This document shows, piece after piece, positions 2,445 to 61,547 of a stretch of 64,000 nt of DNA. Both the position numbers and the translations under genes were made by a program. The notes under the pieces were generated by a model. The model had not been told where the DNA came from. It made no database searches and saw only the letters and a program-made list of their open reading frames with translations. How positions within the stretch are numbered: the first letter of the stretch is position 1; the number at the start of each line of letters is the position of its first letter. Source of the stretch: Promicromonospora sp. AC04 (GTDB lineage: Bacteria; Actinomycetota; Actinomycetes; Actinomycetales; Cellulomonadaceae); contig NZ_QBUG01000001.1 in the NCBI RefSeq assembly GCF_003058225.1, forward strand, positions 558,001 through 622,000, in the 5' to 3' direction.

Positions 2445-3671
2445 ATGAACGAGACTGCAGCTGCCGCAGAGCGACGCGGCCAGGCTTTGCTAGACCTTGG
2501 CCGTGGCCGGGAGGCGGAGGAACAGTTCCGTATCGCGCTGGCCGCGACCCCTGATGATCCGGACCTTCTGACCCAGCTGGCACAGGCGCTCCTGGAGCAG
2601 GACCGTCACCAGGAGGCGCACGACGTCAGTCGCGCGGCCGTGGGCGCAGCCCCTGAGCACGTGATGGCCTACTCGATCCTCTCCGCGTCCCTCGCTGGGC
2701 TCGAACGCCTGCCCGAAGCGCGCGAGGCTGTCCGTCGAGCTCTCGGACTGGCCCCGCACTTCGCCGGGCTGCACGTCCAGGAGGCCCGCGTTCTGCTGGC
2801 CCAGAACCTGCCCGCCGAGGCACTGGCGAGCGTCGCACGGGCACGCGCTCTCCACCCGGAGGACGCAGACGCCGCGGCGGTGCAGGCCGCCGCGCTGTAC
2901 GACATGAACCGGTTCGGCGAGGCTCAGGCTGCGGTCCACGAGGCCTTGCGCCTGGACCCGGAGAGTGTCGTCGCGCACCGCGTCCAGGGCCTGCTGGCAC
3001 TGCGTCGTGGCGGCGGTGCGCCCGCTATTCAGGCGCACCGGACCGCACTGCGCCTCTCCCCCACGGACTCCGGCGCCCGCGACGGGCTCGCCGTCTCCCT
3101 CAAGTCACGTAACCCGCTCTACGGCCTCCTGCTGCGGTACAGCATGTGGTTGCAGGCGCAACCGAAGGCGCTGCGGCTGGGGATGGTCATCTTGCCGCTG
3201 GTCCTAACCCGACTGCTGCGCCCCTTCGACGACCAGCCGTGGGCGACCGCCCTGCTCGTCCTCGTGCTCGCGTATGTCGTGCTCAGCTGGAGCCTCGAGC
3301 CGCTGATGAACACCGTCCTGCTCCTCAGCCGCGACCGGCACGTCCTGGGCCGTCCGGAGCGGTTGGCGACCTATGCCTTCCTCGGTTTCGCCGGGGCGGG
3401 CCTCGCAGTGCTCACCGTGGGCCTGGCAGGGGGCTTTTCCCTCTTCCAGACCCTTGCTCTCGGGCTGGGCCTGTGGGCGATGTCCATCGGCTCCGCCCAT
3501 ACGGTCCGAGCCGGACGTGTCAAGGTGCTGACTATCGGGGCCGGGGTGGCCGCGGTCCTCGCCACGGTGGCGTTCGCCGGCACCCTGGCCGGGGTCGGCG
3601 GCCTGGGCGTCGCGGTGATGACAGTGCTGCTGGGTGGCATCGCTTCCCTCTGGTTCACCGCCTTCGCCTGA
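2445..3671 (+). CDS. TPR-repeat protein with C-terminal multispan membrane domain
   Basis: 408 residues. The first about 210 residues are consecutive 34-residue TPR units with typical Ala/Leu/Pro spacing (each ending near a 'hP' step, for example D-P-E-S and S-P-T-D). From about residue 235 to the end there are about six hydrophobic helices, so the TPR domain is anchored in the membrane, probably facing the cytoplasm. No catalytic motif is seen. It starts 113 bp from the divergent AAA+ gene, which itself has a TPR-like N-terminus; the pairing suggests a membrane-recruited ATPase complex (inference). The ATG at 2445 is chosen at the first TPR helix. Confidence 0.75.
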   Translation: MNETAAAAERRGQALLDLGRGREAEEQFRIALAATPDDPDLLTQLAQALLEQDRHQEAHDVSRAAVGAAPEHVMAYSILSASLAGLERLPEAREAVRRALGLAPHFAGLHVQEARVLLAQNLPAEALASVARARALHPEDADAAAVQAAALYDMNRFGEAQAAVHEALRLDPESVVAHRVQGLLALRRGGGAPAIQAHRTALRLSPTDSGARDGLAVSLKSRNPLYGLLLRYSMWLQAQPKALRLGMVILPLVLTRLLRPFDDQPWATALLVLVLAYVVLSWSLEPLMNTVLLLSRDRHVLGRPERLATYAFLGFAGAGLAVLTVGLAGGFSLFQTLALGLGLWAMSIGSAHTVRAGRVKVLTIGAGVAAVLATVAFAGTLAGVGGLGVAVMTVLLGGIASLWFTAFA

Positions 3672-3685
3672 GGAACGCGGTGATC

Positions 3686-3709
3686 GAACCTGCCGGTCTC
3701 GACAGGTTC
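3686..3709. terminator. Possible weak terminator between convergent genes
   Basis: A 7-bp inverted repeat, GAACCTG / CAGGTTC, with a 10-nt loop lies 15 bp after the stop of the TPR gene and before the end of the convergent hydrolase gene. There is no T-tract, so this is only a candidate. Confidence 0.3.
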
Positions 3710-3835
3710 AGTCACCCGGGGGGCCGATGGCGAGGCGTTGGTCGCAAGCTCGATATGTGTGCGCGCATGACTCCGCGCCATGCACTGACAAGCTACTGCG
3801 GCCACCAACGCGGCGACAGTTCCGGCGAAATGATG

Positions 3836-4657
3836 TCAGGACCCCGGCGCGACCCACCCGGTGATCGCCTCGATGACCTCGCCTTGCCAGGCCAAGGTCT
3901 GCGGCTGCCGATAGGCCTTGTCCCCAGCGACAGCGAACCCATGCCCCGCACCCTCGATCACGAGGAGTCGCGACCGGTCGTTGAGCTGTTCCATCGCCTC
4001 GTACGACGGCCCGATCGGCACCTGGGTATCCGCGTCCCCATGCACGATCAGGACCGGCGCAACGATCTCGCCGAGCGCAGTGTGCGGCTGCAGCCAGAAC
4101 ACCTCGTTGAGAAAAGCCCGCCCGTGCCGAAAAGAGGCCGAGTACTGCACGAACCCGTCCCGGGTCAGCTTGTCGCCGTGCTCGTCGTCGAGACGGTCGT
4201 CCACCCAGTACGGGCGCGAGTCGATCGTGCGCTTCTTGTAGTCGATCCGCGGGCACAGCATCACCAGCCGCTGCACCTGCGCCGGGCGCTTGGCGGCGTA
4301 GTACGCGCAGATCCCGCCGGCGAACGACTGGCCCACCAGCGACGTCGTCGTCACGCCCGTCTGGGCGCTCAGCACCTCGAACCCTGCCCGCATGTCGTTG
4401 AGCAACCCGGCCAGGGTGACGTCTTCCTGCGTGCCCTCGGACTCCCCGTGACCGCGCAGGTCGAACCGCAACGAAGCGATCCCGGCGGCAGCAAGCCCTT
4501 CGGCAATTCGGTCGAAGAAGCCCGACTCGTGCCGGGTCACCCCTCGCCCATGCACGAGCAGCACGCCAAGACTTGCCGGCTCGTCGGGGACGACGACATC
4601 ACCGAAGAGCCGCAGGCCGTCCAGGGACTTGAACTCCACTCGCGACTCATCAGGCAC
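3836..4657 (-). CDS. Alpha/beta hydrolase (esterase/acyl-hydrolase type)
   Basis: 273 residues starting at a GTG preceded by GGGAGG five bases upstream. The catalytic triad is visible: nucleophile Ser111 in GQSFAGG, an acid in HGDADTQVP (about 207-214) and His239 in GAGHGF. An oxyanion H-G-R-G segment is at 37-40 and the strand R-F-D-L-R-G-H-G at 64-71 is typical of dienelactone-hydrolase/BAAT-like serine hydrolases. No signal peptide, so cytoplasmic. The substrate is unknown. It is divergent from a luciferase-like oxidoreductase 243 bp away. Confidence 0.85.
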   Translation of the reverse strand: MPDESRVEFKSLDGLRLFGDVVVPDEPASLGVLLVHGRGVTRHESGFFDRIAEGLAAAGIASLRFDLRGHGESEGTQEDVTLAGLLNDMRAGFEVLSAQTGVTTTSLVGQSFAGGICAYYAAKRPAQVQRLVMLCPRIDYKKRTIDSRPYWVDDRLDDEHGDKLTRDGFVQYSASFRHGRAFLNEVFWLQPHTALGEIVAPVLIVHGDADTQVPIGPSYEAMEQLNDRSRLLVIEGAGHGFAVAGDKAYRQPQTLAWQGEVIEAITGWVAPGS

Positions 4658-4900
4658 GACGACCTCCCAAGAAACGGGACCAGCACGAACATCATCAGTC
4701 TGCCCCCGCAACGTCGAGGTGGGATGCGAGCGGGCGGCGGGAGTTGGGCTGAGCAGGCCGTGGCGGAGAGACGCGAGGGTCAGTACCTCCCCACGGTCCG
4801 CCGACCGAGCCCATGCCCAAGGCCTTGCCTGCAGCGGACCTCCTGGCTCACCCTGGCCGTACCGAGGCGTCCCGTCGGAATCGGACAAAGGAGTCCAGGC

Positions 4901-5707
4901 ATGACCAGACCGTTCCGGTTCGGAGTCGTGACCCCGCTGCTGACTGACCTGCCCTCGTGGCGCGACCGGGTGCGCCGGATCGCCGACAGCGGCTACTCGA
5001 CGCTGCTGATGCCCGACGTCCCGCACTGGCAGCCCGCACCCGCACCGACGCTCGCCTTCGCAGCGGCACAGACGGACCTGCGTGTCGGCACCTGGGTGTA
5101 CGCCTCCCCGCTGCGCCCGGCCTGGAGCACCGCATGGGAGGCGCACTCCCTGTCAGTACTCACCGAGGGCCGCTTCGAGATGGGCATCGGCACCGGCCGG
5201 CCGGGGATCGAGAACGAGCTCCGCGACCTCGGGATGCCCGAGGTCCCGCCGCGAGAGCGGTTGGCCCAGGTACAGCAGACGGTGGCGACGCTGCGAGACC
5301 TGGACGGTCCCGACCTGCACACGCCGGTAGTGATGGCCGTTCGCGGACCGAAGGCCCAAGCCCTGGCCGCCGACGTCGCCGACACCGTCACCTTCGCGGC
5401 GATGCCCAGTGACACCCGTGCCGAGGTCACGGCGATGGCACGCGGGTTCCACGCCACACGGGACATCGAGCTCGCGCTCCACGTGCCCGTCGTCGGCGAC
5501 GCCGTCGCGCCGTTCATGGCACCCCCGGACATCGACACGGCTGCGCTGCGCGAGGCGGACTCGCTGGCCATCCTCCCCGATGACCCGGACGCGGCCGCCG
5601 AGGAGATCCAGCGGCGGCGAGAGGAGATCGGCTACTCCTACTTCGTCTTCGGCGCCGACTTCGCCGAACGGCTCGCACCGGTCGTCGCTGAGCTCTCCGG
5701 ACGGTAG
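4901..5707 (+). CDS. LLM-class (luciferase-like) flavin/F420 oxidoreductase
   Basis: 268 residues, ATG at 4901 with AAAGGAG ten bases upstream. The N-terminal strand F-R-F-G-V-V-T-P, the segment S-G-Y-S-T-L-L-M-P-D near 23-32, and the G-R-F-E-M-G-I-G-T-G-R block at about 90-100 are the (beta/alpha)8 barrel signatures of bacterial luciferase-like monooxygenases and F420-dependent reductases. In actinobacteria most members use F420 or FMN. The family name is secure; the cofactor and substrate are inferred. The protein is shorter than the 330-residue luciferase subunits but within the range of the F420 group. Confidence 0.85.
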   Translation: MTRPFRFGVVTPLLTDLPSWRDRVRRIADSGYSTLLMPDVPHWQPAPAPTLAFAAAQTDLRVGTWVYASPLRPAWSTAWEAHSLSVLTEGRFEMGIGTGRPGIENELRDLGMPEVPPRERLAQVQQTVATLRDLDGPDLHTPVVMAVRGPKAQALAADVADTVTFAAMPSDTRAEVTAMARGFHATRDIELALHVPVVGDAVAPFMAPPDIDTAALREADSLAILPDDPDAAAEEIQRRREEIGYSYFVFGADFAERLAPVVAELSGR

Positions 5708-5815
5708 CCAAGCCGGGCAAGCAGCGGTGAACCTGGCGACGGTCTGGTGCAGCACCTGGCCACCCGCCCGCCGACGCGCAATCATGGCCAGTAGCACCCA
5801 CCGGCGGGAGGCCTC

Positions 5816-7921
5816 ATGGACGCGGCAGCAACAACCACCCACCGGACCGTCGCGATCGTAGGTGCCTCCGGCGCGGGCAAGACGACGCTCACCGAGGCGC
5901 TGCTGCACCGCGCCGGCGCGATCCCCCGCGCGGGCCGGGTGGAGGACGGCAGCACGGTGAGCGATCACGAGCCCGAGGAGATCGCCCGAGGCATCTCGCT
6001 CGGCCTCGCGCTCGGGACGCTCACCTGGACGTGTCCCGACGGCGCCGTGAACACCCTGACCCTGGCCGACGCGCCGGGCCACCCGGACTTCGCGGGCGCC
6101 GCGGACACGGCCCTGTCGGTCGCGGACCTCGCGCTCGTCGTCGTCAGCGCGGTGGACGGCGTGCAGCCCGGCACCCGGAGCGCGTGGGCGGTCGCCGAGG
6201 CGCTCGGCGTGCCGCGCCTCGTCGTCGTGACCCAGGAGGACCGGGCCCGCGCCGACTTCCGGCGCGTGCTCGCCGAGCTGCGCGAGGCCTTCGGCGAGCA
6301 TCTCTGGCCCGTCGAGCTGCCGCTCGGCGAGGAGCAGTCCTTCAGCTCCATCGCGGACGTGCTCGGCGAGCACGCCCTCGTCTACGACGACGCCGGGCGA
6401 CACCACGACGAGGACCTGCCGGCCGGCGTCGTCGACGAGGAGCACCGGATGCACGTCGACGTGACCGAGGAGCTCGTGTCGCACGACGACGAGCAGCTCG
6501 ACGCATACCTGTCGGGACAGGAGCCGGCCGCGGCCGACCTCGAGCGCACCCTCGCGCGCGAGGTCGCCGCGGGCAGGGCCGTGCCCGTGGTGGTTGCCTC
6601 CGGCGTGACCGCCACCGGCGTCGACCGCCTTGCCGACCTGCTGTGCGAGCTGGCGCCCGCGCCGACCGAGCGCGACAGCCGCGTCGTCGTCGGCTCGGGC
6701 GACGACGGCGACAGCGCCGCCGACGACGACGGCGCCCCGGGGAGCTCCGTCGCGGTGGCCGCCGACCCGTCCGGCGAGCCGCTCGTGCACGTCTTCCGTA
6801 CCGTGGCCGACGTCTACGTGGGCCAGGTCTCGATGCTCAAGGTGCTCTCGGGCATCGTGCGCACCTCCGACCGGTTGCGCAACGCGACCACCGGCGCCGA
6901 CGAGCGCATCCACGGCCTGTTCCGGCTGCAGGGCAAGGAGCACCTCCCGGTCGATCACCTGTCCGCGGGCGAGGTGGGTGCCGCCGCGAAGCTGGGCGGC
7001 TCGCCGTCGGGCACGCTGCTCTGGTCGCGGCCCTCGGGCCGCGCCCGGCCCGCCCTGCCGCCGCGGCGGCAGCCGGTGTACGCCGCGACGCTCGTGCCGG
7101 CGTCGCAGTCGGACGACGAGCGGATGTCGACGGCGCTGGCCCGGCTCGTCGCCGAGGACCTGACGCTCGTCGTCGACCGCGTGGGTGACGCGACAGTGCT
7201 GCGCGGCCTCGGGGACACGCACCTCACCGTCGCGGTCGACCGGCTCGCGCGCGTGTTCGGCGTCCACGTCGAGACCGCGCCCGTGCCCGTCGCCTACCGG
7301 GAGACGATCGCGCGGGCCACGCAGGCGGAGGGCAAGGTCAAGAAGCAGTCCGGCGGGCACGGCCAGTTCGCCGTCGTACAGCTGCGGGTGACGCCGCTGC
7401 GCGAGGGCAGCTTCGAGTTCGTCGACTCGGTGGTGGGGGGCTCGGTGCCCCGGCAGTACATCTCGGCCGTCGAGAAGGGGGCGCACGACGCCATGGCCGC
7501 CGGAGGGCCACAGGGCTACCCCGTCGTGGACCTGCGCGTCGAGGTGTACGACGGCAAGTCGCACTCGGTGGACTCGTCCGACATGGCGTTCCGCACCGCG
7601 GCGGCCGCGGGCATCAGGACGGCGCTGGCCGAGGCCGGGACGGTGCTGCTCGAGCCCGTGTCGACCGTGACCGTGACCGTCCAGCCCGAGCACCAGGGCG
7701 CCGTCCTCACCGACCTGTCGGGGCGGCGCGGACGTGTCTCCGCTACCGAGCTGGCCGACGACGGCCGGGCGCGCGTCGTCGCGACCGTGCCGGAGGCGGA
7801 GCTCGGCCGGTACGTCCTCGACCTGCGATCCCTGACCGGCGGCCGAGCCGAGCTCACTGTCGAGCACGCCGGCTACGAACGGGCGCCGAGCGCCGCACGG
7901 GCGGACTCGCCGACGAGGTAG
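5816..7921 (+). CDS. EF-G-like translational GTPase (EF-G2 / FusA2 type)
   Basis: 701 residues, the usual EF-G length. P-loop GASGAGKT is at 16-23, the switch I R-G-I-S near 61-64 and switch II DAPGHPDF around 84-91. The G4 guanine-specificity motif, normally NKxD, reads T-Q-E-D at the expected place (after L-V-V-V). Domains II to V follow, including the domain IV segment K-K-Q-S-G-G-H-G-Q-F-A-V. This layout matches the second, non-essential EF-G of actinobacteria rather than FusA itself: no str operon partners are nearby. The exact role of EF-G2 is not settled. ATG at 5816 follows GGGAGG. Confidence 0.85.
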   Translation: MDAAATTTHRTVAIVGASGAGKTTLTEALLHRAGAIPRAGRVEDGSTVSDHEPEEIARGISLGLALGTLTWTCPDGAVNTLTLADAPGHPDFAGAADTALSVADLALVVVSAVDGVQPGTRSAWAVAEALGVPRLVVVTQEDRARADFRRVLAELREAFGEHLWPVELPLGEEQSFSSIADVLGEHALVYDDAGRHHDEDLPAGVVDEEHRMHVDVTEELVSHDDEQLDAYLSGQEPAAADLERTLAREVAAGRAVPVVVASGVTATGVDRLADLLCELAPAPTERDSRVVVGSGDDGDSAADDDGAPGSSVAVAADPSGEPLVHVFRTVADVYVGQVSMLKVLSGIVRTSDRLRNATTGADERIHGLFRLQGKEHLPVDHLSAGEVGAAAKLGGSPSGTLLWSRPSGRARPALPPRRQPVYAATLVPASQSDDERMSTALARLVAEDLTLVVDRVGDATVLRGLGDTHLTVAVDRLARVFGVHVETAPVPVAYRETIARATQAEGKVKKQSGGHGQFAVVQLRVTPLREGSFEFVDSVVGGSVPRQYISAVEKGAHDAMAAGGPQGYPVVDLRVEVYDGKSHSVDSSDMAFRTAAAAGIRTALAEAGTVLLEPVSTVTVTVQPEHQGAVLTDLSGRRGRVSATELADDGRARVVATVPEAELGRYVLDLRSLTGGRAELTVEHAGYERAPSAARADSPTR

Positions 7922-8094
7922 GCACCGACGGCCGTCTCGCGGGCCGACCACCGGGCGCGGGCCGACGTCGCGGCGTCACCACGGCCGCCGTCGGGCACGC
8001 TCGCAGGGATGGTGATCGTGGTGCGACGGGGCGCGGTCGCGTCCAGGCCTCGCGTTCCCCCTTACGGAGCCGAGCCGTGACCTGGCGAGCCTGT

Positions 8095-8112
8095 GATCGG
8101 GAGGTCCTGGAT
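8095..8112 (+). promoter_or_regulatory. Shared upstream element, copy 1
   Basis: GATCGGGAGGTCCTGGAT matches the element at 12389-12406 at 16 of 18 positions. The core AGGTCCT is itself a short dyad (AGG-T-CCT). One copy precedes the SDR-MFS-ALDH genes and the other precedes the PaoABC-type genes, so it may be a binding site of a common regulator not encoded next to either. Confidence 0.45.
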
Positions 8113-8202
8113 AGGTCTGCGCCGTCCGCCAAGGATCGATGCCATGGCCACCAACCGAGTGGCTGGCCCCGGGCAGAAGCCCGATCGCACAGGGAGCAGG
8201 GT

Positions 8203-8222
8203 CCGTCCGCGATCGCGGACGG
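8203..8222. promoter_or_regulatory. Perfect 20-bp palindrome, candidate operator
   Basis: CCGTCCGCGATCGCGGACGG is identical on both strands and ends 35 bp before the SDR start. Its size fits a dimeric helix-turn-helix repressor. No regulator gene is adjacent. Confidence 0.45.
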
Positions 8223-8257
8223 CCCACCCCAAGACCACGACCTCAAGGAGCAGAACG

Positions 8258-9202
8258 ATGCCACGTACACCGATCGACATCACCATCCCCGATCTGTCCG
8301 GTAAGCGCGCGCTGGTCACCGGCGCCAGCGACGGCATGGGCCTGGGCATGGCCGCGCGCCTGGCCGCGGCCGGCGCAGAGGTCGTCATGCCCGTGCGCAA
8401 CCCGGCCAAGGGCGAGGCCGCGATCAGCAGGATCAACCGAGTCGCACCCGGCGCGAAGGTCTCGCTGCGCAGCCTCGACCTGGCGTCGCTGGAGTCGGTG
8501 GAGGCCTTGGGCGACACGCTGCGCGCGGAGGGCGACCCGATCCACCTCCTGATCAACAACGCGGGCGTCATGCGGCCGCCGCAGCGGCAGACCACCGTCG
8601 ACGGGTTCGAGGTGCAGCTCGGCACCAACCACCTGGGCCACTTCGCCCTGGTCGCCCAGCTGCTGCCGCTCCTGCGCGACGGCCGCGCCCGGGTGACCTC
8701 CCAGGTCAGCGTCGCCTCGGCCAGCGGCTCCATCAACTGGGCCGACCTGAACTGGGAGCGCTCGTACGACGTCATGCGCGCCTACCGTCAGTCCAAGATC
8801 GCGTTCGGGCTGTTCGGCCTCGAGCTGGAGCGCCGCAGCAAGGCCCGTGGGTGGGGCATCACCAGCAACCTCTCCCACCCCGGCGTCGCGCCCACCAGCC
8901 TGCTGGCCGCCCGCCCCGAACTCGGCCGCAGCGACGACACACCCCACATCCGCCGCATCCGCTGGCTCTCCGAGCACGGCATCCTGATGGGCACCGCCGA
9001 GACCGCGGGGCTGCCCGCCCTCATGGCCGCGACCGACCCCGCAGCCAAGCCCGGCACGCTGTACGGCCCGAGCGGCCCCGGCACCCTGGGCGGTGCGCCG
9101 GCCGAGCAGCGCATGCACCGGCCGCTGCGCAGCCTCACCGAGGCCGCGCACATCTGGCAGGTCTCCGAGGAGCTGACCAAGACCGCCTTCCCGACCACGT
9201 GA
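8258..9202 (+). CDS. Short-chain dehydrogenase/reductase (extended, retinol-dehydrogenase-like)
   Basis: 314 residues; ATG at 8258 after AAGGAG. The cofactor motif TGASDGMG is at 21-28, NNAG at 100-103 and the active-site Y-R-Q-S-K at 176-180; the catalytic Ser lies in the S-V-A-S-A-S-G strand near 151. This arrangement matches retinol dehydrogenase/protochlorophyllide-reductase-like SDRs using NADP(H). It is the first gene of a run with an MFS transporter and an aldehyde dehydrogenase, so a role in interconverting an alcohol or aldehyde taken up by the transporter is likely (inference). Confidence 0.85.
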
Positions 9203-9254
9203 CCGCGCAGCCGAGAACCGCGAGCCCCACGAACCGAGCCGCAGGAGCAGCCAG

Positions 9255-10610
9255 ATGAGTTCTGTCCCCCAGCCCGCCGTCCGACGACGAAGCCCGTGGT
9301 GGGTGGTCGTCGGCGCGGGCACGGCGAACGCCGTCGGCCCGCAGATGTACCTGGCGACCACCGGTCTGTTCGTGCTGCCGATCGTCGAGGACACCGGCTT
9401 CAGCCGCACGACCGTCACAGGCGCCTACTCGGTCGCCGCCGTCGGGATGGTCATCGGCCTGGTCATCGTCAGCCGGCTCGTGGACCGGTACGCCGCCCGC
9501 TACATCCTCGTACCGGGGTTCGTGCTGTTCGCCGCCTCGATGGCCACGATCGGCCTGGTCCCGCCCGTCGAGGCCATCTACTTCATCCCGTGCTTCTTCG
9601 TCGGGCTCTTCGGGGGCGCGACGGCGGTCCCCGCCACCCGCGCCGTCGTGAGCTGGTTCGACAACAACCGCGCGCTGGCCGTCGGCGTCGTCACGGGCAT
9701 CATCGGTCTTGGCGCGGCACTGGGTCCGGTGCTGGCCGGTGCGCTCATCAACGGCGTCGGGTGGCGGCAGGCGTACGGCTACCTGGCGCTGATCGCCGCC
9801 CTGGTCTCCGTCACGATGGTCACCCGGTTCGTGCGGGCCCGCGCCGAGCAGCACGTGCGCGGACGACTCGTCCAGGAGACCCACGTCGGGGACCGGGACG
9901 TCAGCCTCCAGCTCCCGGGCCTGACCTTCGGCGAGGCGCTGCGCACCCGCCAGTTCTGGGGCATCGCGCTCGGGCTGGGCATGGTCGGCGTCGTCGTTGT
10001 CGGCCTGCAGGTCCACCTCGTGCCGATGATGACCGACCGCGGGCTGAGCAGCGACCAGGCAGGGCAGCTGCTGGTCATCTTCGGCCTCGCATCGCTCGTG
10101 GGCCGGGTCGTCGGCGGCCTCATCATCGATCGCGTCCACGGCTCGGTCGTCGGACCGATAGTGATGCTCGCCCCGATCGCGGGCATGTTCTTCCTGGAGC
10201 CGCCGTTCTCCACCGCCGCCGTCGCGGTCGGATTCATCGGCATCGCGTTCGGCATCGAGGGTGACCTGCTCGCGCTGCTCGTCACGCGGTACCTCGGCAC
10301 CCGCAGCTTCGGCCAGATCATCGGCCCGGTCCAGGCCATGTTCATCCTCGGCAGTGCCTTCGGGCCGCTGCTGCTCGGCCTGAGCTACGACGAGCTGGGC
10401 TCCTACGACCCGGTCATCCCCGTACTGATGGGCGTTCTCGTGGTCGGCGCGGTCCTCATCGCGACGCTGGGCCGCTACGTCTATCCCGCGATCAACGGGT
10501 TCGACCAGCTCGCCGCTCGCGACGAGCTCGCCGCCGCCGAGGTGCTGAGCGGCGTCGCCGAGGGCCACGACACCCCCGCCCCGTCGGACCGCCTGCTCGG
10601 CCGACCCTGA
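9255..10610 (+). CDS. MFS transporter, OFA (oxalate/formate antiporter-like) family
   Basis: 451 residues with twelve hydrophobic helices. The N-terminal W-W-V-V-V-G-A-G-T and the conserved loop around S-R-L-V-D-R-Y between helices 2 and 3 resemble OFA-type monocarboxylate transporters; the central charged loop sits near residues 185-225. Members carry small carboxylates. ATG at 9255 follows GCAGGAG. It lies 52 bp after the SDR gene and before an aldehyde dehydrogenase, which suggests import or export of the acid side of an aldehyde-oxidising pathway. Confidence 0.8.
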   Translation: MSSVPQPAVRRRSPWWVVVGAGTANAVGPQMYLATTGLFVLPIVEDTGFSRTTVTGAYSVAAVGMVIGLVIVSRLVDRYAARYILVPGFVLFAASMATIGLVPPVEAIYFIPCFFVGLFGGATAVPATRAVVSWFDNNRALAVGVVTGIIGLGAALGPVLAGALINGVGWRQAYGYLALIAALVSVTMVTRFVRARAEQHVRGRLVQETHVGDRDVSLQLPGLTFGEALRTRQFWGIALGLGMVGVVVVGLQVHLVPMMTDRGLSSDQAGQLLVIFGLASLVGRVVGGLIIDRVHGSVVGPIVMLAPIAGMFFLEPPFSTAAVAVGFIGIAFGIEGDLLALLVTRYLGTRSFGQIIGPVQAMFILGSAFGPLLLGLSYDELGSYDPVIPVLMGVLVVGAVLIATLGRYVYPAINGFDQLAARDELAAAEVLSGVAEGHDTPAPSDRLLGRP

Positions 10611-10625
10611 CCACCGGAGAGACCA

Positions 10626-10727
10626 GTGCCCACCAGCCCCCTCGGTCGCGCGTTGCGCAACCGGCGCGCCGGACACCACACGCTCGTCCGGGCGCGGCCC
10701 AGCCTGCAAGCGGAAGCGAGAACATGA
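10626..10727 (+). CDS. Possible 33-residue leader ORF before the aldehyde dehydrogenase
   Basis: GTG at 10626 is preceded by GGAGAG at good spacing, runs 33 codons and stops at TGA 10725-10727, overlapping the ATG at 10724 of the next gene. The product is Arg-rich and unlike any family I recognise. It may be a coupled leader peptide or simply chance. Confidence 0.3.
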   Translation: MPTSPLGRALRNRRAGHHTLVRARPSLQAEART

Positions 10728-59262: not shown

Positions 59263-61281
59263 TCAGCCACGTGCCGGTGCGGGGACGACCGCGCCCTCGA
59301 CGAGCCACTGGCGCGTACCCGCGTTCTCGAGCCAGGCGGTGCGGTCGCCGGCCAGGCTCGCCGTCACCGACCCGCCCGGGAAGCGGGCGAGGTCAGGGCC
59401 GTCGTATCCGGACGCCGACGCCGTCGCGCGGTACAGGTACGACACGTCCGCCGGGTTCTGGGCGGAAGTGTCGGTACTGGTCCACGAGACCAGGCTGCCC
59501 GACGCGCGGAGGTCGTCGACGACGCCGTCGGGGAGCCGCACGACGCTGTCGCCGTCACCGACCCGGTCGAAGACGTAGAGGGCACCGGATCCACCGCCGA
59601 CGGGCACGACCGTCCACGCGATGACGTCGTCCGAGACGGCGACCTGGGTGACCTCGGCCGACGAGTCGTGCTCGATCTCGAAGAGCAGGGCGCTGCTGGG
59701 GACCCCGCCGGTCAGGTCGGCGAACAGCGAGAACGCCGTCGTGCTGGTCCCGTCGGCGCCGGGGGTCGGCACGGCGGCGATCGCCTCGTCGTCGTCCGCC
59801 CCGAGCGCGGTGACTCCGGCCGCGAGCTCCATCGGCGTGCCGTCGCCGTCGAGCGTCGTGGCGAACAAGCGGGTGTCGTCGTCCGTGGCTCCGGACGTCC
59901 ACAGGGCGCTGTCCTCAGTGGTGGCGAGCAGCCATAGGCGTTCCTGGGTACTGGTCAGGGGATCCATCACGCCGGAGAGCGTCTCGCCGGAGAGGGTGAG
60001 CGTACGGAGGAAGCTCATGTGGGGGGACAGGCCCGCTGCCGCGTACTCGCTCCAGATCACACGGTCTCCGGTGACGGCGAGGCCGACCGGGAACGTCCTG
60101 CTGCCCTCGTCCGACGTCAGGCTGGTCGAGGACCCTGACCCGTCCCCCGCCCAGGTGCTGGTCTGGATGTGCGCGTCGTCGGTCTCGTCACTGTCGTCGA
60201 AGAGCTCAGCGCTGTCGAAGTGCCAGATCTTGCCCGTGTCGGAGATCCCGCGGGGCTCGGGCAGCGGCTCCCCGTTGGCGGTGACCGGCAGTCCCGCATC
60301 GTCGAGGAAGCCGGGCGTGACCGCCTCGATGTCGACGTCGTAGCAGGTCAACGGCCGGGCGTCGGCGGCATCGACCACCACGGGGTTGTAGAGCACGCTG
60401 ATCTCCTCACCGGACTCCGGAGCACGGGCCGGGGTCGGCTCGGGGAGCTCATCGGGGCAGGCGACCGGCGTGTTGCCCGCCGGGCCCAGGTCGGGTCCCA
60501 GCCCGTCGGTGGGGCTCTCGTCGAACAGGGGCGCGATCAGCTGACCGCCGGGCAGCACCACCGGCCCGACGACGGGCAGCGGCACCGGGCCGCGCGTCAC
60601 CACGCCGAGCGCAAGCAGGAGCACAAGGCACGCGGCCCCTACCGCCTGCGTGGCCCGACGCCGCCGCAGCGCCGCCCGGCTCCGGTCCAGCACGGCCTGC
60701 TCGTCGAACGCCACCGGCTCGATCGCCTCGGCCCCCTCCACGAGCAGGTCCCGCAGCCGGGCCAGCCCGCGCGAGTTCGCCGCCTTGACCGTGCCGATGG
60801 AGATGCCGAGCTCGCGGGCGACCTCCGCCTCGGGCAGGTCCAGCAGGTGCCGCAGCACCACGACCCGCCGCTGGTTGACCGGCAGCTGCGACAGCCCGCG
60901 GACCAGCTCGTCCCGCAGCATCACGTGCCCGGCATGGTCCGACGCCGGCGCGACGGGGATCTTATCGTCGCCCGGGAACGACTCGCGACGCCCGTGCCGC
61001 CAGCCGTCGATCCGCAGGTTGACCAGGATCCGGCGCGCGTAGGCGCGCTGCGTGCCCGGCTTGACCTTGGCCCACGTGCGGTAGACCCGCTCGAACGTCG
61101 ACTGGACCAGCTCCTCCGCCCGGTGCGGGTCCCCGCACAGCAGGTATGCGGTGCGGTGGAGGTACACGCCGGAGTCCCGGACGAACGCGGTGAACTCCGC
61201 GTCACGGGAACGCGGCACCTCGACACGCACGTCGTGCGCCGCGCCGTCGTCCGACGGCATGCTCGTCCCGAAGTCGCTCAT
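59263..61281 (-). CDS. ECF sigma factor fused to a transmembrane helix and large extracytoplasmic domain
   Basis: 672 residues from ATG 61281 (GCGGGG upstream; ATG 61305 and GTG 61314 are alternatives). Residues 27-95 are sigma region 2 (L-H-R-T-A-Y-L-L-C-G, E-E-L-V-Q-S-T-F-E-R-V-Y) and 128-182 region 4 (L-P-V-N-Q-R-R-V-V-V-L-R, L-G-I-S-I-G-T-V-K), as in actinobacterial SigE-family ECFs. After an Arg-rich segment a single hydrophobic helix (211-229) crosses the membrane. The remaining 440 residues, outside the cell, contain recurring G-D-R-V-I-W-S / D-D-V-I-A-W-T-like blades suggesting a beta-propeller, and a few cysteines. A sigma factor tethered to its own sensor is inferred. Confidence 0.85.
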   Translation of the reverse strand: MSDFGTSMPSDDGAAHDVRVEVPRSRDAEFTAFVRDSGVYLHRTAYLLCGDPHRAEELVQSTFERVYRTWAKVKPGTQRAYARRILVNLRIDGWRHGRRESFPGDDKIPVAPASDHAGHVMLRDELVRGLSQLPVNQRRVVVLRHLLDLPEAEVARELGISIGTVKAANSRGLARLRDLLVEGAEAIEPVAFDEQAVLDRSRAALRRRRATQAVGAACLVLLLALGVVTRGPVPLPVVGPVVLPGGQLIAPLFDESPTDGLGPDLGPAGNTPVACPDELPEPTPARAPESGEEISVLYNPVVVDAADARPLTCYDVDIEAVTPGFLDDAGLPVTANGEPLPEPRGISDTGKIWHFDSAELFDDSDETDDAHIQTSTWAGDGSGSSTSLTSDEGSRTFPVGLAVTGDRVIWSEYAAAGLSPHMSFLRTLTLSGETLSGVMDPLTSTQERLWLLATTEDSALWTSGATDDDTRLFATTLDGDGTPMELAAGVTALGADDDEAIAAVPTPGADGTSTTAFSLFADLTGGVPSSALLFEIEHDSSAEVTQVAVSDDVIAWTVVPVGGGSGALYVFDRVGDGDSVVRLPDGVVDDLRASGSLVSWTSTDTSAQNPADVSYLYRATASASGYDGPDLARFPGGSVTASLAGDRTAWLENAGTRQWLVEGAVVPAPARG

Positions 61282-61547
61282 GGTCGCCCCGCTCTTCTGC
61301 CTCATGCCATCCACTACGGAGAGTGTCGGCCAAAGGTTGGCTCAGTGCCGTGACCAAGCACGGCGACGACCGCCTGCTCAGGGTCCCGCTGACCGAGCGG
61401 CCGGCGAAACCTGGGGGGTCCTGTCCGGCCCTCCCAGCCGAGCCTGTCGGTGACATTTGATAGAGACGTGAACCGCTGACGTCGCCGCGGACCCCAACTC
61501 GCGTGCCCCGCTGCCGCCAGCCCCCGCTTGACCACGAAGAGAGACCC

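Follow-up and report, generated by a model that had tools for sequence, protein, structure and literature searches.

The window analysed here, a stretch of 64,000 nucleotides from Promicromonospora sp. AC04 (NZ_QBUG01000001.1, positions 558,001 to 622,000), carries on its minus strand a gene (59263..61281) that joins an extracytoplasmic function (ECF) sigma factor, one transmembrane helix and an outer domain of about 440 residues in a single 672-codon frame with no internal stop. We consider it probable, though by no means certain, that the product is a SigE-family sigma factor which spans the membrane as one chain, in which the outer part acts as a sensor and the sigma factor is freed by cleavage near the membrane. 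An initial annotation of the sequence had proposed that sensor and sigma factor are one protein here, and homologues, patterns of selection, cysteine parity and an unfused gene pair in the same genome all speak for that proposal.

In the mechanism that we envisage, the sigma domain would lie at the inner face of the membrane and would be kept off core RNA polymerase by the juxtamembrane helix together with its tether. A ligand of the cell envelope or the surroundings would be sensed by the outer domain, and the signal would lead to cleavage near the membrane, in the manner of regulated intramembrane proteolysis, that releases the sigma factor. Once freed, it would activate its own gene along with a few more, among them, perhaps, an operon predicted to make a D-aspartate cross-bridge.

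Results

Composition of the fused protein

The sigma-2 and sigma-4 regions recognised in the initial annotation were both matched by Pfam above the cut-off, and the sigma part scored 156.2 bits against TIGR02983, with a cut-off of 141.55, over model positions 4-160 of 162. Coverage of nearly the whole model above the curated cut-off indicates that the sigma part is a member of the SigE family, and a SigE chain was the top PDB sequence match of the protein (9.3e-17). The Arg-rich stretch and single hydrophobic helix described earlier were likewise found, as a linker of 27 residues with RRRR at 206-209 followed by a helix at residues 210-228; a transmembrane helix stands at the matching place in 30/30 fused proteins measured. 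The outer part (residues 232-672) is acidic, with 69 D/E versus 17 K/R, and belongs to no Pfam family: at E values up to 1, the whole protein matched only sigma and helix-turn-helix (HTH) families plus SPDY at 0.13. In the GPVPLP part P3, V4, P7 and P15 are invariant across 31 outer domains. The only cysteines of the protein are at positions 49, 218, 275 and 313.

The fused family in Promicromonospora

A search for homologues with the same fusion, as the initial annotation had advised, returned 34 propeller-type matches with a long frame through the sigma domain and transmembrane helix in 12 of 13 genomes of the genus, including the host genome; none was found in the remaining genome, G012. 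One of the 34, on G010:C14, has a TGA within the aligned stretch. A subset of 26 fused genes from 12 genomes was read as open reading frames (ORFs) and aligned. The form found in the window accounts for 12 of the 34 matches, in 8 of the 13 genomes including the host, and the host genome has eight fused copies in all. No unbroken sigma-through-transmembrane match was seen outside the genus among the best candidates from 296 other genomes of the order and 393 of the class; since scoring in these searches was limited to the 7-10 top candidates of each genome, more distant fusions may have been missed. With the linker, transmembrane helix and outer domain as the query, 11 of 200 genomes of the family matched, and every one was Promicromonospora.

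Two fused sigma genes lie in direct tandem in P. panici (L013:5320-7365 and 7410-9506). Broken copies were also encountered. In G009, which has two intact copies, a window-type sigma-transmembrane stretch with three stops (C1:1875433-1876176) is a probable pseudogene and was excluded from the 34 matches. Remnants of window-type genes, mainly of the C-terminal part, occur in P. soli (L015:6079-6495) and in G002 (C12:509352-509552), and a remnant fused sigma gene in the host genome (L043:523-969; C3:288522) has kept its promoter and lost part of the sigma2 region.

Selection, topology and fold of the outer part

Ratios of nonsynonymous to synonymous substitution (dN/dS) were estimated by simple Nei-Gojobori counts in nine pairwise comparisons. 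They were 0.17-0.40 for the sigma domain and 0.16-0.46 for the linker plus transmembrane helix. The outer domain gave 0.47-0.72, with 0.81 in one of its sub-segments, and every segment stayed below 1 in the nine comparisons. The dN of the outer domain was 2.7 to 7.9 times that of the sigma domain. By these counts, constraint on the frame extends over the joint, and change is fastest in the outer part, as for a sensor.

The number of cysteines is even (0, 2 or 4) in 31/31 outer domains. The 31 rows are related, so that this parity counts as five patterns (none; columns 71+116; 71+101; 71+116+305+355; and 71+116+310+355) and not as 31 independent tests. Further outer domains were even in 11 of 11 cases. 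The sigma domains of 34 members have no cysteine (18), one (14) or two (2). Even cysteine numbers, as expected of disulfides, and the RRRR motif before the helix speak for a C-terminal domain outside the cytoplasm; a cytoplasmic location, which had been raised earlier as an alternative, is not indicated by the homologues.

Eight segments of the outer part were compared with hhalign. Five of the 28 pairs reached a probability of 48.9-85.5%, and these involved segments 392-445, 445-490, 530-580, 578-630 and 628-668, with lengths of 41-54 residues; the other 5 of the 10 pairs among these segments gave only 5.0-19.5%, segment 484-530 at most 3.7% and the two N-terminal segments 0.9%. The recurring D-x-V-x-W repeats noted in the initial annotation therefore exceed chance by profile comparison of segments within 392-668. 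Foldseek matches of an AlphaFold model (one job, four sequences) to PDB entries had query TM-scores up to 0.28, SigE chains being matched as well. Most of the 50 matches shown are propellers, in part as judged by title. Taken together, the repeats and the low-confidence model make it likely that the outer part is a beta-propeller.

Origin from a sigma factor/membrane partner gene pair

An unfused sigma gene at C3:295821-296327 of the host genome has a stop codon that overlaps the start of a partner gene. This partner has the tail VFDPDLVLAGSRRALRRRR, a transmembrane-like stretch under the calling threshold and an outer domain that is homologous to the fused outer domain in an iterated profile search; by eye, its tail is ~13 residues longer than the fused linker. 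To place this pair among its relatives, we drew on 59 rows of unfused SigE-like sigma factors fetched by likeness to the window protein, 21 of them from the genus. At least three (L012, L053 and L054) are distant ECFs, to judge by their branch lengths. Neither the sigma tree nor the partner counts include nine sigma rows that were duplicates or fragments. A downstream partner ORF was present in 55 of the 59 and missing in four, the overlap was 4 nucleotides in 48 of the 55, and a transmembrane helix was called in 49, at a median residue of 44, and uncalled in six. The corresponding values outside the genus were 35/38 for the partner ORF, 28/35 for the overlap and 34/35 for the helix, with a median tail of 42.5. 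Since unfused pairs have such a partner ORF and the C3 partner is homologous, it follows that the fused chain carries its usual membrane partner in cis, as its C-terminal part.

The partner of L053 resembles an ordinary zinc-finger anti-sigma factor by eye. The outer part of another unfused SigE-family partner in the host genome (L050:3345-4478, on C3) ends in a PASTA domain (PF03793, 1.1e-8), hinting at cell-wall sensing.

A second fused set, the C10-type, has a divergent sigma part that scored 96.6-113.4 bits, under the TIGR02983 cut-off, and an outer domain that was not recovered by the propeller profile. Four such genes form a tandem cluster (C10:200098-206668) beside unfused sigma/membrane-protein pairs. 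C10-type sigma-transmembrane matches numbered 26, in 13/13 genomes of the genus, and none was found at 1e-30 among the best candidates from the phylum's other genomes (395 searched). In a quick sigma tree, the starred branches require two or more changes of state, and on this tree the fusion is accordingly placed as having arisen at least twice; within the propeller clade, a single fusion is compatible, though without branch support (49/11). Between sigma4 and the point of highest hydropathy in the helix lie 28-40 residues in the 26 propeller-type and 29-32 in the four C10-type fusions, and the sigma extension plus partner tail of unfused pairs has a median of 56 and a minimum of 43 (n=49). 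Measured in this way, both kinds of fusion ended with a similar, shortened linker.

Promoter and start codon

The predicted ECF-type promoter of the fused gene, AACCTTT-N13-CGTAG, occurs without mismatch in the host genome only at this gene and at the fused C3 paralogue. The more general form, with a spacer of N17 between AAC and CGT in fused genes and of N18 in the unfused clade, precedes 31/31 family genes examined (26 fused, 5 unfused), at one site per 200-nucleotide upstream stretch and with a -35 element that reads AACC, or AACT in one case. An ATG follows the CGT by 10 nucleotides in 31/31, a spacing that the pattern imposed; when it was not imposed, the first ATG after the CGT stood at 10 nucleotides in 27/31. 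This ATG is in frame with the sigma factor in 23/26 fused and 0/5 unfused genes, and a leaderless start is therefore possible in most fused genes, the window's included, but not in all. In four members of the unfused clade (L005, L036, L060 and L080) it begins a short reading frame that is out of frame with the sigma factor and runs into the sigma start.

In a promoter-motif search of the host genome, as suggested in the initial annotation, AACCT-N15-CGT-N10-ATG gave 11 sites, as compared to 0 in a reversed control. Six are at family sigma genes, one of these a remnant and one the unfused C8 pair, and the other five comprise a predicted ligase gene, one ligase-like remnant (by eye) and three sites inside other called genes. 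A related pattern gave 7 sites versus 0 in the control, 5 of them at family genes. Because a conserved ECF-type promoter precedes the family sigma genes, the pattern suggests that they are autoregulated.

A candidate target operon

The predicted ligase gene (C8:186024-187298 in the host genome; operon L198:3154-5311) has no Pfam match. It has sub-cut-off NCBIfam matches to carbamoyl-phosphate-synthase-like proteins and two relatives on Lactobacillaceae plasmids, annotated as "carboxylate-amine ligase", with 27.4 and 31.9% identity (1e-46 and 3e-44). The gene after it, present also in the two congeners scanned, encodes an Asp/Glu racemase (PF01177, 2.5e-37). In Lactococcus, the D-Asp cross-bridge is made by the products of one operon, which encodes a D-Asp ligase of the ATP-grasp type as well as a racemase (PMC4155827); by analogy, the ligase/racemase operon may serve D-Asp cross-bridge synthesis.

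The same type of promoter at the same place was found in 11/11 ligase orthologues versus 0/12 scanned paralogues (12 of 13, L187 being left out). In G010 a single DUF2071 gene separates the operon from a fused sigma gene of the window type, and the spacing is the same in G004; in G007 the operon adjoins an unfused SigE-family pair. Sigma factors of this class may have the operon among their targets, and the shared promoter type hints at a cell-wall regulon. At a further site in the host genome (L170; C5:99305-99340), the promoter and first codons are ligase-like and other frames follow, which is probably a truncated second copy.

Flanking genes and feature coordinates

The fused gene is flanked by genes for an MmyB-type HTH regulator and a zinc-binding dehydrogenase. 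As the initial annotation had observed, neither of these two neighbours is a separate anti-sigma gene; the usual partner is the protein's own C-terminal part. The features are listed in Table 1.

Table 1. Features of the fused gene and its upstream region in the window, and the C10-type fused genes
Feature	Position	Strand	Remarks
CDS of the sigma factor-membrane sensor fusion	59263..61281	-	672 aa; 680 aa from ATG at 61305
SigE-family ECF sigma domain, residues 26-182	60736..61206	-	TIGR02983 6.5e-46; Pfam PF08281, PF04542
Juxtamembrane linker, residues 183-209, RRRR at end	60655..60735	-	aligns with cytosolic tail of separate partners
Single transmembrane helix, residues 210-228	60598..60654	-	hydropathy mean 2.23
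GPVPLP...VVLPGG segment and low-complexity linker, residues 229-295	60397..60597	-	low predicted local distance difference test (pLDDT) score
Cys275, first of two outer-domain cysteines	60457..60459	-	cysteine survey
Cys313, second of two outer-domain cysteines	60343..60345	-	cysteine survey
Propeller-like repeat region, residues 392-668	59278..60108	-	profile similarity between segments; beta-rich low-confidence model
Predicted ECF-type promoter AACCTTT-N13-CGTAG (AAC-N17-CGT)	61314..61338	-	conserved in alignment of 11 close homologues
Possible leaderless start ATG, in frame, 8 codons upstream of 61281	61303..61305	-	directly behind promoter
C10-type fused genes	L046 (C10:197000-216000): 2982-4919, 5026-6801, 6871-8673, 8938-10698		tandem

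Discussion

Fused sigma-transmembrane-sensor proteins (ECF52, IutY) and ECFs extended by WD40 domains are already known (PMC8567305 for the latter). ECF52, represented by SCO4117 of Streptomyces coelicolor, is likewise an actinobacterial fusion of an ECF sigma factor, a transmembrane region and an outer domain, for which proteolytic release is proposed and positive autoregulation suggested (PMC5826349), as here. Besides a zinc finger it contains a carbohydrate-binding module and an extension rich in Pro, whereas the window protein joins a sigma part of the TIGR02983 type through a 27-residue linker to a propeller-like domain. We found no zinc-finger match to the window protein in Pfam and no carbohydrate-binding module in Pfam up to E 1, and membership in ECF52 was rejected on these grounds. 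IutY of Pseudomonas putida (ECF243) belongs to the iron-starvation cell-surface signalling of a Gram-negative bacterium, and this analysis found no partner domain common to it and the window protein. ECF57 and the WD40-extended ECFs of Planctomycetes have WD40-like C-terminal extensions, as described in PMC8999054 and PMC8567305, but belong to another phylum; ECF57 is described with a pair of cysteines that may connect its sigma2 and sigma4 regions, whereas the window sigma domain has one (49).

Also close in design are the separate SigE-family pairs of actinobacteria, with a homologous sigma factor, an Arg-ending segment and one transmembrane helix, to which the C3 pair adds a homologous outer domain. 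These pairs are two overlapping genes, whereas the fused protein has the counterpart of that segment, residues 183-228, in the same chain. A survey of anti-sigma factors sets aside cytosolic segments of <50 residues as possibly class II (PMC7406223); by length alone, the 27-residue fused linker and the partner median of 44 fit such CnrY-like factors. No published description of this SigE-family/propeller fusion was recognised in full-text searches, most subscription papers lying outside their reach.

Activation by proteolytic release is suggested by analogy with IutY and ECF52. IutY is cleaved by Prc and RseP, and release by proteolysis is expected for ECF48, ECF52 and ECF53 (PMC8999054); truncated SCO4117 raises its own expression (PMC5826349). 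The host genome has two loci for M50 (site-2) proteases.

Several observations count against the scheme of a propeller-bearing, cleavage-released sigma factor with a cell-wall target. M50 matches were present in 14/14 control genomes as well, so the presence of the protease says little. The fused linkers are shorter than the summed segments of unfused pairs, and part of the presumed anti-sigma segment would thus be missing. The propeller-like domain of the initial annotation has the repeats and a beta-rich model on its side, but that model is poor (mean pLDDT 43.7, with 485 of 672 residues <50), and the recommended hidden Markov model comparison with propeller families stayed below the cut-offs throughout: profile searches with the 31 outer domains gave BamB at 0.068 in the PDB, and WD40_2 at 0.015 and a COPA/B propeller at 0.063 in Pfam, and unrelated families were matched in these searches too. 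WD40_2 was matched by 2 of the 31 outer domains (best 0.015, under the cut-off), and the window protein itself had no WD40 match in Pfam. A propeller is therefore likely, short of proof. As for the target operon, G001 and G011 have fused sigma genes and no ligase orthologue, G012 has the ligase and no propeller-type match, and the ligase -10 element reads CGTGT or CGTCT versus the window's CGTAG, which counts against a one-to-one link.

Other explanations of the same features were weighed. The full-length anchored sigma factor might switch conformation and transcribe while tethered, with no cleavage; a juxtamembrane segment trimmed relative to the separate partners, and linker and helix dN/dS values that overlap those of the sigma domain, would fit such a coupler. 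However, we know of no anchored sigma factor that initiates transcription, and consider this route unlikely. IutY, the one such fusion said to be characterised, is cleaved (PMC8999054). There is only a slim chance that the fused proteins serve as receptors for cross-talk, acting in trans on paralogues as anti-sigma factors or competitors in one network with the split pairs: propeller-type paralogues do have a common promoter type and ATG position, and several fused copies, with four fused genes in tandem, share a genome with split pairs, but the short cis linker makes self-inhibition likelier than action in trans.

The outer domain might also be a decaying leftover on a sigma factor that is anchored and switched off. 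Its dN, 2.7-7.9 times that of the sigma domain, the remnants in P. soli (L015), G002 and the host genome (C3:288521), and the G009 copy with three stops could be read in this way; the long frames in 12/13 genomes, dN/dS <1, even cysteines and conserved promoters make it highly improbable. Lastly, a sequencing frameshift could have joined two genes, a concern voiced in the initial annotation, and an unfused pair is indeed present in the same genome. The same fusion recurs in separate assemblies and dN/dS is <1 across the joint, so that we rule this out as having a negligible chance; judged from these alignments, the gene is an intact, genuine fusion. The favoured explanation is still a single-chain receptor whose sigma factor would be released by cleavage.

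A wider proposition, which we put forward as doubtful but possible, is that a two-gene switch was converted at least twice to a single-chain sigma receptor, giving a diversifying set (eight fused copies in the host genome) with self-recognised, often leaderless promoters in the propeller lineage and, among the targets, synthesis of the peptidoglycan D-aspartate cross-bridge. If this is true, Promicromonospora owns a repertoire of receptors derived directly from sigma factors. For the merged chain itself, one protein would be enough to turn a signal from outside into gene expression. That fusion happened two or more times, with linkers of similar shortness, gives an idea of how small an anti-sigma segment suffices in cis. 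With fused and unfused versions in one genome, a precise predicted promoter and a candidate operon, the holding and release of a tethered sigma factor would be directly testable in this soil actinobacterium.
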